A DNA stretch of 64,000 nt from Methyloprofundus sedimenti (lineage in GTDB: Bacteria; Pseudomonadota; Gammaproteobacteria; Methylococcales; Methylomonadaceae), in contig NZ_LPUF01000001.1 of the NCBI RefSeq assembly GCF_002072955.1, positions 2,068,896 to 2,132,895 on the forward strand. The letters are read 5' to 3'. Of this stretch, positions 3,205 to 64,000 are shown in pieces; positions within the stretch are counted from its first letter, which is position 1, and every line of letters begins with the position of its first letter. The notes under the pieces are model-generated. The model worked only from the letters and a program-made list of their open reading frames with translations, had not been told where the DNA came from and did not search any database. The translations under genes and the position numbers were made by a program.

Positions 3205-6200
3205 ATGAAAATACTGAACGTTTATTTTAATAATATCAATTCACTGGCAGGTGAAAACCGAATTGATTTTGATAAGGCGCCCTTTGTGGATGCGGGTGTC
3301 TTTGCGATTACTGGACCAAATGGTTCCGGGAAAACCAGTATTTTAGATGCCATTAGCCTGGCTTTATATGGCGAGACATTTCGGTTTAATAAGCCTGCGG
3401 AAAATGTCATGACTAAAAATACAGCTGTGTGCTTTGCACAAGTCGAATTTATAGTGAATGGTGAAAAATATCGTTCCAGCTGGCAGGTTAAGCGAGAGGA
3501 TGCTTCCCCTGAAGGTAAGATCATGGCAGCACAAATGCAATTGATGCATGTGAATGGTGAAGATCAGATTATAGAACGCGAGGCGTATAAGGTGCTAGCA
3601 CTTAATACTGAGATAACCGGGATGGATTTTCGCAGGTTCACTCGCTCAATTATGTTGGCGCAGGGCGATTTTGCGGCATTTTTAAATGCGCTGGATGCTG
3701 AACGTCTGGATATTCTGGAACGTATAATCAGTAATGATATTTATACTGATTATAAACAACAGATTCACGTATTAACTAAACAGGCAGAACAGCAATTAGC
3801 CAGTTTGCAAGTACGCCTGGATGAAATTGATTTGATGACAGATATTCAGCGTGAGACAGCTGAGCTGGATTTAGCGGATCAGAAATTAACTTTTGCAGAA
3901 TTAAAGCAAGAAAACACTAGCTTATTGCAGTTACAGGCTGGTTTGCAGGATTTACAGAAATTAGAGCAGAATATTAGCCAGTTAGAGCGAACTCAAACTG
4001 AAGAGCAGAAAAAATTAGTTCAAGCGCAGGCCGATTTGGTCAAGATTGCTAACGCGACAGATGTATTGGCATTCAAGCCTGGTCTGGATAGTGTCGCTGA
4101 CAAAAGGGTATTGATAGGTCAAATACATCAGCAACAAGCGACTTATCAAAAGGATTTACAGAAAATTCAAGATAAATTAGCTGTTGATGGAGTTGATGAC
4201 AGTACATTAGCTTCTTTGACCAGGCAGGATGCTACGCTTGTTCAGCAAAAGCTATCAGATTTAAGAGCTAAAACTGCTCAACTCAAGTTAGACAGGCAAT
4301 CAGAAGCAGCGCTGTTAAATGCGATAGAGGCTCAATTGCCGGATAAGCAGCAGACCTTATCGGAGGTTGATAGCTGGCTGTCTGACAGAAAAAAAGATCA
4401 TATTCTTATTGAGAATATGCCTGAATTAGGGCGTTTAAAAAATTTACGCAATCTTAGTGTTGATATACAAAAGCAACTTAAAACATTTAATAAATTACAT
4501 AAAAGTAGCTCTTACGCTTCAACTAAAAACCTCAAGCGGTTATCTGTAACAGAGAAAGAAATTGCCAGTGGTAAAAAATCTTTAGAGCAATTAGGTCATG
4601 AGCTGGAGTATATAGCTGATGGACATAGTTTTGAAGAATTCATTGCCTTGCATCAAGAGCAGAAGGAGCGTGTAGCCAATTTTGTTGAATTATTCAATTT
4701 AGCAAAAGTACATCGGAGTTTTGTTAAAAAAGGTTTTTCTAAACGCTATGAGCATTTTGATAGGGCGCAGTTAGATAAGCAGTTAGATGCTAAAAATAAT
4801 CAAATTGAATCAGCACAAAATATTCAGCAGATATTAGAAAAAGCGGTCTATCGCGAGCGACTAACTATTAAGTTAGCGGAAGATAGAACAAGGCTGGAAT
4901 ATGATACACCCTGTCCATTGTGCGGCTCTCTTGATCATCCGTATACCAGAAAATCACCTGCAATATATGATTCGCAAAAGGCTTTAAATGATCAATCTGC
5001 AACAGTAAAATCACTGCAAAATGAAGCGAGACGAATTGCACAACAGCTTGCTGCCTATATGGCTGTCAAAGACAAGAATACCGAGCATGCCGAGCGGATT
5101 AACCGGGTTAAAACAGAATGGTTGACCTTGTGTACGCGGCTAAATGCGGTGAGCGATGATTTTGATATAACGAGCTTTCGAGCTATGAATAGTCGTATAA
5201 AAAATGAAAAGCAGGATCTAAAAGAAATTGCAGCTGTGATTAAACGCTTTCAGGCAAAAAAGAAAGAAATTGCAAAAATGGATGTCTGGGTAATTAAAAA
5301 ACAGGTTCAGCTGGAAAGAATACAGGCTAAACAGAAAGTACTCGATGAAAGTGGTCAGGGACGACCTCAGGAGATTGTTAATCTGGAAGCTGAATTAGCA
5401 AAATGTATGCAGGAAGAAAGTACTCTTACAAAACTGATTAGCACCCTTTTAGCTGAATTGGGTGAAAAGTTACCAGGTGTCGGCAAAGAGGATGGTTTGT
5501 ATGATTTGCTTAGTAAGCGTAGGCAGGATTATCAAAGTTACAGTTTTCGCCAGAAATCCCTGTCGGATGAAGTTGCGCAAATAATGGCAAAAATCACTGC
5601 GAGTAATGAATTACTGCATGATCTGGATCAGCAGTTTCAGGCATTATTAGCCCAGATTCGTGAGCAAGAAATTGCACAGCTGTATTTTGCTAAATTAGAT
5701 TTACAATCTCAGTTGGCGGGACAAGAAAAATCAATTGCACAATTAGAGCTAGAGTTAAATCAGAGGCTTTCAGCTTTAAATGTGCAGTTACAACAATCAA
5801 ATTTTCAATCTTTGGATGAAGTTCAGGAATTGATTGATTTATGTGTGCGTAAGGATGAAATACAGTCCCTATTGCTAAGTTTGCAGGAAAGTATCGTGCA
5901 ATATCCTGCTCAAATTGAGGCATTGCATAGACAGTTAAATGCCGAACGCGAAAATATAGCGACTGAGGAGACGCTGGAAAGTGTTGTGATAAAACTTAGG
6001 GATAAGAAAGTACAAATGGAAATCGCCCAGCAAGAAGTCAACACATTGGAGACCAGTCTGCAAAAACAACAGCAATTACAGCAGGAAAATGCACAACTGA
6101 TCAAACATATTGAGCAGCAGGAAATTTCTGTACAGCAAATGCAGGAGCAGCAACAGAAAATTGATGCTGAGCCAGAGAATATTTTCAGGCGTCGAGTGCA

Positions 6201-58927: not shown

Positions 58928-60022
58928 CCCGAATTCATATAATAACTGCAACACCTCTTTAAAGGGTTAGATGGTATAGTTTCCGTCGACTAAAACCTGA
59001 AACTAAAAAGAGGTGCTCAATGAACACGTTTAACCATCTAACCCAAGAGGAAAGATTTTACATTTATACGCAACTAAAACAAGGCGTTTCTAAGAATCAA
59101 ATAGCCATCACATTGGGGCGTCATAAATCGACTATTGGACGTGAAATTACGCGTAATACAGGTCAGTGTGGTTATCGTTACAAGCAAGCTGAGAGAATAG
59201 CTAAACAACGCCATATTGATAAGCCCAAAAACATCAAGATGACGGCTGAGTTACAACAGATAATAACGCCTTTAATCAAAGAGAAATGGAGCCCTGACTG
59301 TATTTCAGGACGCTTAAAACAACAAGGTAAGGACTCCGTCAGTCATGAGACTATTTACCGTTATATTTTAGCTAACAAAGCAGCCGGTGGCGATTTGTAT
59401 ACTTATTTGAGGCATCAAGCCAAACCTTATCGTAAGCGATATGGAAAAAATGATTATCGCGGAACGATACCCAGCCGTGTTGATATTGATGAGCGACCAC
59501 AAGTGGTTGATGATAAAACGCGTTTAGGTGATTGGGAAGCAGATACTGTTATCGGTAAAGGACATAAAGGCGTATTGGTGACGCTGACTGAACGGGTCTC
59601 AAAGCTCAACTTCGCCATCTCAATTGAGCGTAAAGAATCTGAATTAACGAAAGAGGCGATTATCAATGCTCTTGAGCCTTTTAAACGTTGGGTTCACACG
59701 ATTACCTTTGATAATGGACGTGAGTTTTGTGGGCATGAAGCCATTGCAAAAACACTTGACTGCGGCACTTATTTTGCCAAACCGTATCATTCGTGGCAAC
59801 GAGGTTTAAATGAAAACCACAATGGCTTATTAAGGCAATACTTCCCTAAAAAAGAACCTTTGGATAAGGTAACTCAAGATGAGGTTGATAGTGCCATTAC
59901 AGCACTTAATCATCGTCCAAGAAAAGGGTTAAATTACAGAACTCCATGGGAAGTATTTTGCCAAATAACGGGGGTTGATATAAATAAATCACAGGGTGTT
60001 GCATTAATTGCTTGAATTCGCG
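58928..60022 (+). mobile_element. IS30-family insertion, copy 2 (1095 bp, intact)
   Basis: Same ends as copy 1 (CCCGAATTCA... and ...GAATTCGCG), flanked by TGT on both sides (58925-58927 and 60023-60025). It carries a complete transposase, so it is a potential source of further copies. Confidence 0.93.
59020..60015 (+). CDS. IS30-family transposase
   Basis: A 331-residue transposase. An N-terminal HTH_38 domain (MNTFNHLTQEERFYIYTQLK, GVSKNQIAITLGRHKSTIGREI) is followed by a second HTH-like region (SPDCISGRLKQQG, VSHETIYRYI) and a DDE integrase core (GDWEADTVIG, HTITFDNGREFCGHE, WQRGLNENHNGLLRQYFPK with the catalytic Glu). Complete and intact. Confidence 0.94.
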   Translation: MNTFNHLTQEERFYIYTQLKQGVSKNQIAITLGRHKSTIGREITRNTGQCGYRYKQAERIAKQRHIDKPKNIKMTAELQQIITPLIKEKWSPDCISGRLKQQGKDSVSHETIYRYILANKAAGGDLYTYLRHQAKPYRKRYGKNDYRGTIPSRVDIDERPQVVDDKTRLGDWEADTVIGKGHKGVLVTLTERVSKLNFAISIERKESELTKEAIINALEPFKRWVHTITFDNGREFCGHEAIAKTLDCGTYFAKPYHSWQRGLNENHNGLLRQYFPKKEPLDKVTQDEVDSAITALNHRPRKGLNYRTPWEVFCQITGVDINKSQGVALIA

Positions 60023-60059: not shown

Positions 60060-61499
60060 TCAAACAGAAATATGTAATGAACGCCCGCTTAAGGATAATG
60101 CACTTTCGTGAATTGCTTCAGAGAGAGTCGGGTGGGCATGGATTGTCCGTGCCAGATCTTCAGCGGTTGCCGAAAACTCCATTGCTAAAACAGCCTCGGC
60201 TATTAATTCAGAGGCCAGAAAACCGATGATATGAACGCCTAATATGACTTCTGTATCAGCCTGCATAATCATTTTCACCATACCTGACGTTGTGCCCTTA
60301 ATTTGCGAGCGACTGGTTGAGCTGAAAGGGAAGTTGCTGGTCTTGATATTCTCGCCTATGGCAAGCAGGTCTTGTTCCGTTTGACCTACCCAGGCAATTT
60401 CAGGGTCGGTATAAATGACATTAGGAATAGTGTGATAGTTAATCGGGGATTGCTGGCCTGCGATCAGTTCAGCGACAAAAATTCCCTCTTCAATACCTTT
60501 ATGCGCTAACATTGGTCCTGATAATGTCAGGTCACCTATTGCATAAACGCCCGGTAGTGTTGAACAGCAATTCTCGTCGACATGCACAAAGCCTTCTTCA
60601 TCGAGCAGCAAATCTGCGGATGCTGCTATGAGAGTTTCCGTATTGGGTTTTCTGCCTGAAGCGACTACCAGTTTTTCAAAAAAACATTGATGTCGTCCTT
60701 GCTTGTCTTCATATTCCACATTTACCTGGTTTTGTTCTATATTAGTGGAAATAACCCGTGCGCCCAGACGAATATCCATGCCTTGTTTACAGTAGAGTTT
60801 AAAAGCTTCATCAGATATTTCCTGATCAGCCATGGTCATAAAAGATTCTTGTGCTTCAAGCAGAACCACTTTTGTACCTAATTTATTCCAGATACCAGCC
60901 AGCTCGATACCTATTGCGCCGGCACCAATAATTCCCAGTGTCTTTGGGACACTTTGTAAATTCAATGCCTTTTGCACATCAATAATAAATTCATTGTCTA
61001 TCGGGGCGAATTTCAGCTCCACAGGGCTAGAGCCTGCAGCAAGAATGATTTTATCAGCGGTAATGACTTTGGGTAAGTTGTCGCTAAAGGGAATTATTTC
61101 TACTCGATTAGGATTGATAAGTTGAGCATGGGCTTTAATGGTTTTAACTTTATTATCGATAAATATTTGTTCCACTTGTTGATTTAATAAGGCAACTATA
61201 GCTTCTTTGCGCTTCTGCATTTTGGGAATATCAGCCTTTATATTGTCTGCACTGATACCATGATCAGCCAGGCCATGATTGGCTAGATGAAATAATTTAG
61301 CTGACTCTAATAGTGCGACGGCAGAAATACATCCTCCATTGACATAATTGCCACCAAGACAAGGAGTAGATTTTTTTGAGTCCCAATTATCAATACAAGC
61401 CGTTTTAAGACCAAGTTGAGTAGCGCGGGTCGCCGCAACATATCCTGCGGGTCCGGCACCTATGACAATAACATCGAAATCATTTTTTTGTTGAGACAT
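60060..61499 (-). CDS. lpd: Dihydrolipoyl dehydrogenase-like E3 lacking the first redox cysteine
   Basis: A 479-residue pyridine nucleotide-disulfide oxidoreductase, third gene after sucA-sucB, where the E3 of 2-oxoglutarate dehydrogenase is expected. FAD motif GAGPAG (14-19), NAD motif GAGAIGIELAG, the FAD-contact block GVYAIGDLTLSGPMLAHKGIEEG, and the C-terminal HAHPTLSE with H456/E461 are all present. The redox site, normally C-x4-C in GGTCLNVGCIPSKAL, reads GGNYVNGGCISAVAL: Y52 replaces the first Cys and only C57 remains. The standard disulfide mechanism should therefore be impossible, or the missing thiol must be supplied otherwise (C47 lies five residues before Y52). Confidence 0.88.
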   Translation of the reverse strand: MSQQKNDFDVIVIGAGPAGYVAATRATQLGLKTACIDNWDSKKSTPCLGGNYVNGGCISAVALLESAKLFHLANHGLADHGISADNIKADIPKMQKRKEAIVALLNQQVEQIFIDNKVKTIKAHAQLINPNRVEIIPFSDNLPKVITADKIILAAGSSPVELKFAPIDNEFIIDVQKALNLQSVPKTLGIIGAGAIGIELAGIWNKLGTKVVLLEAQESFMTMADQEISDEAFKLYCKQGMDIRLGARVISTNIEQNQVNVEYEDKQGRHQCFFEKLVVASGRKPNTETLIAASADLLLDEEGFVHVDENCCSTLPGVYAIGDLTLSGPMLAHKGIEEGIFVAELIAGQQSPINYHTIPNVIYTDPEIAWVGQTEQDLLAIGENIKTSNFPFSSTSRSQIKGTTSGMVKMIMQADTEVILGVHIIGFLASELIAEAVLAMEFSATAEDLARTIHAHPTLSEAIHESALSLSGRSLHISV

Positions 61500-61513: not shown

Positions 61514-62752
61514 TTAAATATTAAGTAGTAAATGAGCAGGCGATTCCAGACCTTCTTTAATTGCATATAGAAACTGCACTGCATCACGTCCATCTACCAG
61601 GCGATGATCATAAGATAAAGCAAGATACATGATTGGGCGAATAACAATTTCCCCGTTTTCTACGATGGGTCGCTCGGTAATTGCATGCATACCTAAAATT
61701 GCACACTGTGGCGGGTTTAGAATAGGAGTAGACAGCATAGAGCCAAAAATACCTCCATTGGTAATTGTGAAAGTGCCACCATTGAGTTCTTCATAAGTAA
61801 GTTTACCGGCTTTGGCTTTCTGGCCAAAATCAACAATATTCTTTTCAATACCCGAGAAATCGAGCTGATCTGCATCACGTAACACAGGCACTATCAAACC
61901 ACGGGGGGAAGATACAGCGATTCCCACATCATAATAACCATGATAAATGATATCTTCACCATCAATGGAAGCGTTAATAGCAGGAAAGCGCTTAAGTGCT
62001 TCGATCGAGGCTTTAATAAAAAAGGACATAAAGCCCAATTTAACATCGTGTTTAGCAATAAAACGCTCCTGGTACTGCTTACGCAGGTTAATTACGCTTT
62101 GCATATTTACCTCATTGAAGGTAGTCAACATGGCCGCGTTTTGCTGCGCCTGCAATAAACGTTCCGCGACTTTAGCACGTAAACGCGTCATAGGTACACG
62201 TTGTTCAGGACGTGCACCGTTAGTATTTAACAGTGGGCTAACCTGATTAACAATGGATTCTTTTTCCGGTGCTGCGGGTTCTGGATCTATTTTTGCTTCA
62301 GGGAGAGCGGGAGGTGTTGAGTTTTGTGCTAAATAATCTATTACATCACTTTTGGTGAGGCGACCACCTTTACCCGTACCTGTAATCATGGCTGGGTCGA
62401 GATTATTTTCAAAAATAATATGCCGTACAGCAGGACTTAACGGGATATCACTATTTGTAACTTCGGTCTTGGCGGGTTCTTGCACTGGATCCTGAGTTGC
62501 TGATTCAGTTTCAGTTTCAGTGTTAATTTTAGCCAGCAAATCACCACTGACGACCAGACTCCCGTCTTGTACAAGTATTTCACTTAATACGCCTGAGATC
62601 GGGGAAGGAACTTCAAGTACTACTTTATCAGTTTCCAGATCTACCAGATTATCGTCTTTCTGAATAGTGTCACCTACTTGTTTATGCCAGGTGATTAAAG
62701 TCGCATCTGCAACTGATTCGGGTAAAGCTGGAACGCGTATTTCAATGCTCAT
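61514..62752 (-). CDS. sucB: Dihydrolipoyllysine-residue succinyltransferase (OGDH E2)
   Basis: A 412-residue E2 with an N-terminal lipoyl domain (lipoylated K43 in [11 protein letters not shown]), a Pro/Glu-rich linker and a peripheral-subunit-binding domain ([32 protein letters not shown]). After a second linker comes the catalytic domain ([39 protein letters not shown]) ending in [13 protein letters not shown] with H383 and D387. All catalytic residues are intact. It overlaps sucA by 4 bases; lpd follows 14 bases after its stop. Confidence 0.95.
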
Positions 62753-64000
62753 GATGTTTTCCTTGCTGCAGCAGCTTGGCCGTATAAAGCCATTTCTACA
62801 ACTTCTTTTTGTTGTTCTAAATGTTTGGCCAAATTACCGACAGCCGGTGATGCAGACGCCTGGCGACCACAGTAAATTAGTTTCAAATGATCAGGTTTGA
62901 ATATATAAAAATTATGTCGTGATTGATACCAGGCACCTTGATTTTGAGGCTCTTCCTGGCACCAGATGACTTTTTCTAAATTGGGGTACTTGGTAAATTC
63001 TGCGGAATAGTCTCTAATCGGGAAAGGATATAATTGCTCAATTCTCACTATGGCGACGTTATCTGGATTATTCTGGGTTCGTGCTTCTAGCAAATCATAA
63101 TAAACTTTACCCGAACAAAGTATTAACCGGGTAACTTTGTTAGCATCTATTGTTGTATCTATCTCGGAAATAACCGTATGAAAATGGCCATCAACCAGAT
63201 CTTCCAGAGTTGAAACAGCCGCTTTATGCCTTAATAAACTTTTCGGCGACATAACAATAAGTGGTTTACGGTAATCACGTATCACTTGTCTGCGTAATAA
63301 ATGAAATATCTGTGCCGGGGTTGACGGTATGCAAACCTGCATGTTCTGGTCAGCACATAATTGTAAATAGCGCTCCAGACGGGCAGATGAATGTTCCGGA
63401 CCTTGTCCTTCCATACCATGAGGCAAGAGCATGACCAGCCCCGATAAACGTCCCCATTTGCTTTCACCAGAACTAATAAACTGGTCTATTAATACTTGTG
63501 CGCCATTTGCAAAATCACCAAACTGAGCTTCCCATATAGTTAAAGTTTCAGGAACTGTTGAACTGTATCCATATTCAAAGCCTAAAACACCCGCTTCAGA
63601 TAGAATTGAGTCAAAAATTTGTGCATGGCCTTGTTTAATATCCAGGTGCTTAACAGGAATATAGGATTCTCCATTGATTTGATTATGCAAAATAATATGC
63701 CGATGAAAAAAGGTACCACGCCCAACATCCTGCCCCACCAAACGCACATTGAATTGATTCATAAGCAGGGTTGCATAAGCCATGTTTTCAGCAAAACCCC
63801 AGTCTAATGGCATTGCTCCAGCCGCCATTTTGCGTCGATTTTCCATAATTTTAGAAACCCGAGGATGTAATTCAAATCCTGGTGGTAAACGTTGAGACTG
63901 GTTATTACAAAAGCGTATCCGTTCCAGAGGAACCCTGGTATCACAAGATATATCCCATTGTTGGCCGACATACTTGTCCCAAAGCTTGGAATAGGAGTAG
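62749..64000 (-). CDS. sucA: 2-oxoglutarate dehydrogenase E1 component, C-terminal part (cut by window edge)
   Basis: The C-terminal ~417 residues of SucA; the frame is open to the window edge and the start lies outside. Clear E1 blocks are [88 protein letters not shown]-like RQASASPA and [12 protein letters not shown]. This thiamine-dependent subunit decarboxylates 2-oxoglutarate and passes the succinyl group to SucB. An internal ATG at 63846 is not the start. Confidence 0.95.

Follow-up and report, generated by a model that had tools for sequence, protein, structure and literature searches.

A disulfide-free homologue of dihydrolipoyl dehydrogenase in the 2-oxoglutarate dehydrogenase operon of Methyloprofundus sedimenti and its family

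The gene that follows sucA and sucB in Methyloprofundus sedimenti codes for a relative of dihydrolipoyl dehydrogenase (E3) in which the first cysteine of the redox-active disulfide (Cys1) is missing. This loss is real and family-wide, and purifying selection acts on the gene about as strongly as on sucB. Judged from its sequence, the protein is an E3 by score and by descent and not by its defining disulfide, and it is best filed as a disulfide-free E3 homologue rather than as a functional dihydrolipoyl dehydrogenase; it would descend, by vertical inheritance and with loss of the disulfide, from the E3 of 2-oxoglutarate dehydrogenase. Among the matches listed for the open-licence PMC literature, no title or abstract described such a variant. 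The term window is used here for the whole stretch analysed, 64,000 nucleotides of contig NZ_LPUF01000001.1, and positions are those of this stretch.

The gene and its operon

The original prediction placed an intact gene in a normal sucAB-lpd operon, and we found the same. The reading frame runs from ATG to TGA and encodes 479 amino acids without internal stops (list of open reading frames and codon reading), and family models name all three genes. The features are as follows.

60060..61499, minus strand: lpd-like gene for a flavoprotein of the E3 fold without the CxxxxC disulfide, the putative pseudo-E3 (TIGR01350, PF07992, PF02852)
60117..60134, minus strand: codons 456-461, catalytic-type His...Glu, retained (family alignment)
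60525..60527, minus strand: codon 325, single extra residue following the FAD-binding Asp (GDL-T-LSGPMLAHK; alignment)
61317..61325, minus strand: codons 59-61, Ser-Ala-Val replacing Pro-Ser-Lys (alignment with comparison E3s)
61329..61331, minus strand: codon 57, TGT, Cys, the remaining (flavin-side) cysteine (codon reading)
61344..61346, minus strand: codon 52, TAT, Tyr replacing the first redox Cys (codon reading)
61514..62752, minus strand: sucB, E2 of 2-oxoglutarate dehydrogenase (NF004309, 577.6 bits, cut-off 449)
62342..62443, minus strand: E3-binding (peripheral subunit-binding) domain of SucB, predicted E3 docking site (PF02817, residues 104-137, 44.1 bits)
62749..63999, minus strand: sucA, C-terminal part of E1 of 2-oxoglutarate dehydrogenase, continuing beyond the window end

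The window protein scores 450.1 bits against TIGR01350, above the cut-off of 408.8. Its gene lies directly downstream of sucB and sucA on the same strand, sucA overlapping the start of sucB, and is encoded with them as a subunit of 2-oxoglutarate dehydrogenase would be. The full SucA frame (950 codons, in locus L053) reaches 1220 bits against TIGR00239 (cut-off 770), and SucB has its lipoyl, E3-binding and catalytic domains (PF00364, PF02817, PF00198) and the DHRxxDG motif. On the other side, a transposase-like gene, which we take to be of the IS30 type, occupies 59020-60015 on the plus strand, with HTH_38 over its cut-off and an integrase core just under. Its end is 44 bases from the lpd end, so an insertion sequence may adjoin the operon downstream.

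Where canonical E3s read G-G-T-C-L-N-V-G-C-I-P-S-K, the window protein reads G-G-N-Y-V-N-G-G-C-I-S-A-V. The redox-active CxxxxC is thus reduced to Y52 and C57, and the Lys of CIPSK is replaced by Val61 (codon GTC). Both the missing first cysteine and the altered PSK had been pointed out in the original prediction, as had the retention of the FAD, NAD and His-Glu sites. Residue comparison bears this out, the FAD- and NAD-binding residues being retained along with H456 and E461.

Loss of the redox cysteine across the family

Our sample comprised 161 genomes of the GTDB family of the host, 123 of which gave a match to the E3 gene at E<=1e-90; with three further same-genus copies, 126 loci were read. 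One partial locus missing the motif (L022) was a gap row, leaving 125 readable rows. The 124-row family alignment and tree exclude L016 and L022. A broken copy from genome G025 (L048) was excluded from the E3 alignments, and one open fragment entered one alignment as L061.

The Cys1 position is occupied by Tyr in 65 of the 125 readable rows, by His in 31, Phe in 27, Asn in 1 and Val in 1, and by Cys in none. As to whether Tyr is fixed among relatives, a check suggested with the original prediction, the absence of Cys1 held throughout and the identity of the replacement did not. The Lys of CIPSK is likewise absent from all 125 rows, with Met, Ile, Leu, Val or Phe instead. The second cysteine (Cys2, C57) survives in 97 rows; the other 28 have Ser (16), Gly (8), Asn (2), Asp (1) or Thr (1). 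H456 is present in 102 and E461 in 108 of the 126 family rows, and the catalytic His is changed to Arg or Tyr in 23. Cys1 is also missing at nine of nine loci from named public genomes: the named relatives Methylovulum psychrotolerans Sph1 (L089) and Crenothrix polyspora (L090), and seven loci from Methylobacter, Methylovulum, Methylococcaceae or Methylococcales MAGs. Among the nine, at least two (L090 and L132) are identical to rows from the genome sample, so they contribute names and not extra data. Three family members fetched later (L313-L315) lack Cys1 too.

Seven further members without Cys1 were scored against TIGR01350; five pass and two, L260 and L261, fall below the cut-off. These two (from G084 and G106) are the most diverged family copies, 44% identical to the window protein and with sucB on the same stretch, and they perhaps represent a further step of divergence. 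In G025, the E3 gene after sucAB is split into two fragments, and the sucA and sucB frames are open.

The comparison set contained 78 E3s, 71 from named gammaproteobacterial loci (Pseudomonas in many cases) and seven from f7 and f8, two families of the same order. Cys1, Cys2, Pro and Lys are present in 78 of 78, whereas in the 124 host-family rows of the same alignment Cys1 and Lys occur in none and Pro in 10. With 13 more f7 copies, the motif is canonical in 18 of 18 proteins from f7 and 2 of 2 from f8. In other families of the order, one f2 protein (G037) has Phe at Cys1 and retains Cys2, and one f5 protein (G040) has Tyr and Ser at the two cysteine positions. Two E3-like proteins from f6 (L047 in G052 and L300 in G193) have Ser at Cys1 and retain Cys2 and a Lys, and no sucB was found in the fetched stretch.

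Canonical E3s have 158 columns conserved to at least 95%. The family retains 57 of these columns in at least 97% of its rows, and just nine are altered in at least 90% of its rows; these nine include Cys1, Pro, Lys and Arg327. The NAD motif GxGxxG and the FAD Asp323 are invariant in all 124 family rows. After the FAD Asp, every one of the 124 family rows has the extra residue, and all 78 comparison rows are gapped at that position. Mean column entropy in the disulfide region rises from 0.24 bits in the comparison set to 0.98 bits in the family. Entropy also rises in residues 69-150 (1.36 to 2.0), 150-185 (0.94 to 1.35) and 8-45 (0.66 to 0.94), in the interface domain (0.82 to 1.06) and in the NAD region (0.90 to 1.05), and it falls in residues 286-350 (0.84 to 0.72). 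In relative terms the disulfide region changes most, though other regions also shift.

A 99-row tree was built by a quick method with Pseudomonas thinned and with L003, L005, L012, L016, L056, L057, L060 and L061 left out. A single branch (SH-aLRT 99) separates all 40 rows without Cys1 from the rest, and they adjoin the canonical f7 and f8 rows (fork support 97); the f6 protein L047 has a branch length of 1.86 and its placement is unsure. When the motif columns were removed, a tree of the 124 family rows against seven outgroup rows needed one change. On the 124-row tree, position 52 changes at least nine times, with only two rows leaving Tyr, His or Phe, and Cys2 changes at least 13 times. This pattern indicates a single loss of Cys1 in the sample without regain, constraint of position 52 to aromatic side chains or His, and repeated loss of Cys2.

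Pairwise dN/dS is 0.025-0.137 for E3 (18 pairs compared, 16 giving a value) and 0.039-0.122 for SucB (17 pairs), most pairs being rough because dS exceeds 1 and is near saturation. The pairs with E3 dS under 0.75 give 0.025, 0.040, 0.029, 0.093 and 0.137. It is extremely unlikely that the gene is a pseudogene or that its motif reflects sequencing error. The fragmented gene in G025, and the three genera that seem to have lost the gene (see below), would fit decay; however, the single change on the tree and an E3 dN/dS about as low as that of SucB, far below 1, argue against a pseudogene, and sequencing error is ruled out by the same loss in all 125 readable rows, drawn from many assemblies. In four of the 126 loci (G033, G105, G096 and G111) the gene is intact on a non-edge contig apart from sucB, next to unrelated genes: AIM24 in G033 and G105, a competence gene in G096 and a cytochrome c assembly gene in G111. 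Two further loci without sucB (L022 and L216) are contig edges, and sucB is on the same stretch in 120 of 126. Intact copies at new sites argue that the E3 gene is selected in trans.

Other E3s and the possible role of the protein

A second lpd with an intact CxxxxC, which it had been proposed to look for, is found in the aceE-aceF-lpd operon of the host. Its genes score 1498.9 bits for aceE (cut-off 859.9), 644.9 for E2 (552.1) and 497.5 for E3 (408.8), and the motif of this pyruvate dehydrogenase (PDH) E3 is the canonical GGVCLNVGCIPSK. In all 21 family loci that were read, the host included, the PDH-type E3 has GGVCLNVGCIPSK, and an E2-like gene is adjacent in 19 of them.

SucB matches at E<=1e-90 were obtained in 154 of the 161 family genomes and the E3 without Cys1 in 123; all 123 have sucB, an overlap inflated by adjacency and assembly gaps. 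The 31 genomes with SucB and no match to the Cys1-less E3 at this threshold belong to g12 (13), g14 (12) and g31 (4), together with G025 and G140. In G140 the contig ends just after sucB, and in G025 the E3 gene is the fragmented one described above, while the three genera seem to have lost the gene. The surroundings of sucB in two of the 29 genomes of these genera (G028 and G030) contained no Cys1-less E3, and at a looser threshold the best matches there were PDH-type. Outside the family, sucB with at best PDH-type E3 matches occurs in f4 (G039, G046, G051, G054, G057 and G060) and in f6 (G041, G047, G055 and G058). The E3-binding domain of SucB is nevertheless over its cut-off in seven of seven loci from genomes without the Cys1-less E3. 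Since the docking domain is kept without an E3 of its own, the complex presumably uses the PDH E3 in such genomes. Of the options raised in the original prediction, a borrowed E3 is the one that fares best, given the canonical PDH E3 throughout and SucB without its own E3 elsewhere.

The host has other flavoproteins with CxxxxC. Locus L005 is a glutathione reductase by score, and L003/L004 reaches 396.8 bits against TIGR01350, just under the cut-off, with no family model over cut-off among those shown. L003/L004 could serve SucB instead of the PDH E3. L003 and L004 are two gene copies on two contigs of the host assembly (C1 and C3 of G000); the stretches that carry them agree at 3396 of 4344 positions in an ungapped comparison, which suggests recent duplication or a mobile element.

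Loss of the interchange cysteine is expected to abolish lipoamide turnover. The reading we prefer, in which we have about even confidence, is that the protein is a disulfide-free pseudo-E3 on 2-oxoglutarate dehydrogenase, that the lipoyl groups would be reoxidised by the PDH E3, and that the pseudo-E3 would shape assembly or rate of the complex. Its disulfide pocket appears to be refilled with Tyr, His or Phe and a hydrophobic residue. Such a protein would be unable to oxidise dihydrolipoyl groups through the normal thiol-disulfide relay, and SucB would then be served by the PDH E3. On the E3-docking domain the pseudo-E3 would persist as a non-catalytic or weakly catalytic dimer that binds FAD and NAD(H). 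It may aid assembly there, and it might also set or gate how fast the complex works by competing with active E3; such competition by an inactive E3 is conjecture. Conservation of the NAD site and the His-Glu pair exceeds purely structural need, so some redox role may remain.

A possible though doubtful alternative is a neofunctionalised redox subunit, which would pass electrons to or from a partner other than a disulfide, such as a quinone or another acceptor, with the complex, or the subunit by itself, functioning independently of NAD+-linked lipoamide chemistry. The nearly invariant FAD and NAD residues are consistent with this, as are the remodelled loop by the FAD Asp, with its fixed insertion and lost Arg327, and a position 52 that is Tyr, Phe or His in all but two of the 125 rows despite its many changes on the tree; disulfide-poor relatives with other acceptors (SthA and LpdA) also exist. 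However, no row keeps the active-site Lys, whereas Glu199, which we take to be its partner, stays; this would be uncommon in a functional reductase with such a fold. Scores against the transhydrogenase model PRK05249 (290.4 of 465 bits) and the NAD(P)H-quinone dehydrogenase model PRK07845 (227 of 479) are far below cut-off, Arg or Tyr replaces the catalytic His in some rows, and the sequence points to no acceptor. One version of this idea, that the disulfide-free E3 passes electrons via its FAD to a non-NAD acceptor such as a quinone, or senses NADH, we consider unlikely; if it were true, the TCA cycle would run though an NAD+-linked assay finds little or no activity.

The protein might instead still be an E3 that performs lipoamide chemistry without an enzyme disulfide, with dihydrolipoyl groups reacting with the flavin directly or through a mixed disulfide on Cys57. 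Retention of Cys57 and His456 in most rows would fit such chemistry, and His is missing in 17 of the 28 rows without Cys57 and in 7 of the 96 with it (kinship ignored), as if the two residues were functionally linked. Yet the gene is still intact in the 28 of 125 rows that lack Cys57, which also tells against the mixed disulfide of the original prediction as a general mechanism, and a bulky Tyr, His or Phe should fill the pocket. Nor is there a family-wide replacement thiol for Cys1 among C47, C35, C311, C26 and C164, no other Cys exceeding 63% of the family unless it is already common in canonical E3s. At C47, the substitute named originally, only 12 of the 126 rows of the family have a Cys. 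C35 and C311 are each present in 117 of 126, but canonical E3s have them too (97% and 90%); C26 and C164 are enriched in the family (61% and 63%, against 24% and 5% in canonical E3s) and absent from the window protein. Taken together, we regard this chemistry as improbable. A role unrelated to 2-oxoglutarate dehydrogenase, the place in the operon being historical, is a still more remote prospect. The four intact genes among unrelated neighbours would suit it, and against it stand sucB on 120 of the 126 stretches and in all gene-bearing genomes, figures that adjacency and assembly gaps inflate.

2-Oxoglutarate dehydrogenase in methanotrophs and known relatives of the protein

The suggestion that the host is a methanotroph gained support, as TIGR03080 (PmoA-type) is over cut-off in its genome. 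We asked whether loss of Cys1 is tied to methanotrophy and rejected this: among 35 genomes searched, TIGR03080 matches in 28 (26 over cut-off), including six of the seven canonical f7 and f8 genomes (four over cut-off), and gave no match in the Cys1-less G020, G037 and G040. 2-Oxoglutarate:ferredoxin oxidoreductase was also rejected as an alternative route. TIGR03710 is over cut-off in only two of the 35 genomes (G027 and G043), the host not among them, and this model is not specific, since it matches in all 14 control genomes, six of them over cut-off.

We take strains 20Z(R), 5GB1 and DH-1 to belong to the family of the host, and the f4 genomes to be relatives of Methylococcus capsulatus. 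If M. capsulatus is indeed of f4, the absence of such an E3 from the f4 genomes means that the pseudo-E3 cannot be a general cause of missing 2-oxoglutarate dehydrogenase activity in methanotrophs. Passages in three papers describe type I methanotrophs as lacking this activity despite having the genes (PMC517821, PMC10602362, PMC6373157); the statement in the first is taken from a 1996 review and also covers Methylococcus capsulatus, for which this genome paper gives MCA1952 and MCA1953 as the 2-oxoglutarate dehydrogenase homologues (PMC517821). For Methylomicrobium alcaliphilum 20ZR grown on methane, the portion of PMC5802761 that reports enzyme activities gives 120 +/- 20 nmol/min/mg for pyruvate dehydrogenase with NAD+, and for NAD+-linked 2-oxoglutarate dehydrogenase the entry N.D., an abbreviation that stands there without expansion. 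According to the same portion, succinate semialdehyde dehydrogenase and glutamate decarboxylase are active in this strain, on which its authors base their case for a branched cycle (PMC5802761); these two enzymes are a possible bypass. On the other hand, a passage in PMC6456754 cites isotope work (Fu 2017) by which the oxidative cycle operates on methane in M. buryatense 5GB1, and in Methylomonas DH-1, as a section of PMC6373157 relates, the complex is highly expressed and is the sole enzyme at the 2-oxoglutarate node, and an sdh mutant accumulates succinate. The isotope work and the DH-1 data indicate that the complex is not simply off.

A link between the pseudo-E3 and weak 2-oxoglutarate dehydrogenase activity is possible. 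Within the family of the host, a family-wide disulfide-free E3 is a concrete candidate cause of weak or unassayable NAD+-linked activity and could serve as a target for metabolic engineering. TIGR01350 names these proteins dihydrolipoyl dehydrogenase despite the missing disulfide, and annotations and metabolic models may therefore count an E3 that possibly does not work.

The best solved relatives of the window protein are E3s of the LpdG type, 5u8u (473 bits) and 1lpf (472.1 bits), which we take to be Pseudomonas chains. The window protein resembles this type in its place in a sucAB-lpd operon, in fold family, in its FAD, NAD and dimer regions and in its match to TIGR01350. Unlike the LpdG type, it has no CxxxxC and no CIPSK Lys, carries the extra residue after the FAD Asp and has lost Arg327. 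The PDH E3 of the host (L002, also L278) belongs to the same TIGR01350 family and is 35-36% identical to the window protein, but it sits with aceE and aceF and retains its motif. The soluble transhydrogenase SthA and the mycobacterial quinone reductase LpdA share the fold, are not known to carry a complete redox disulfide and use other acceptors; their genes are not known to be encoded with sucAB, and the window protein is below cut-off for their models (NF003585 and NF005883). A further parallel to the putative pseudo-E3 is the mammalian E3-binding protein, a catalytically silent homologue of a complex subunit that is kept for structure and docking. Both would be pseudoenzyme subunits of a 2-oxoacid dehydrogenase complex, the mammalian protein being derived from E2 and the pseudo-E3, by descent, from E3.
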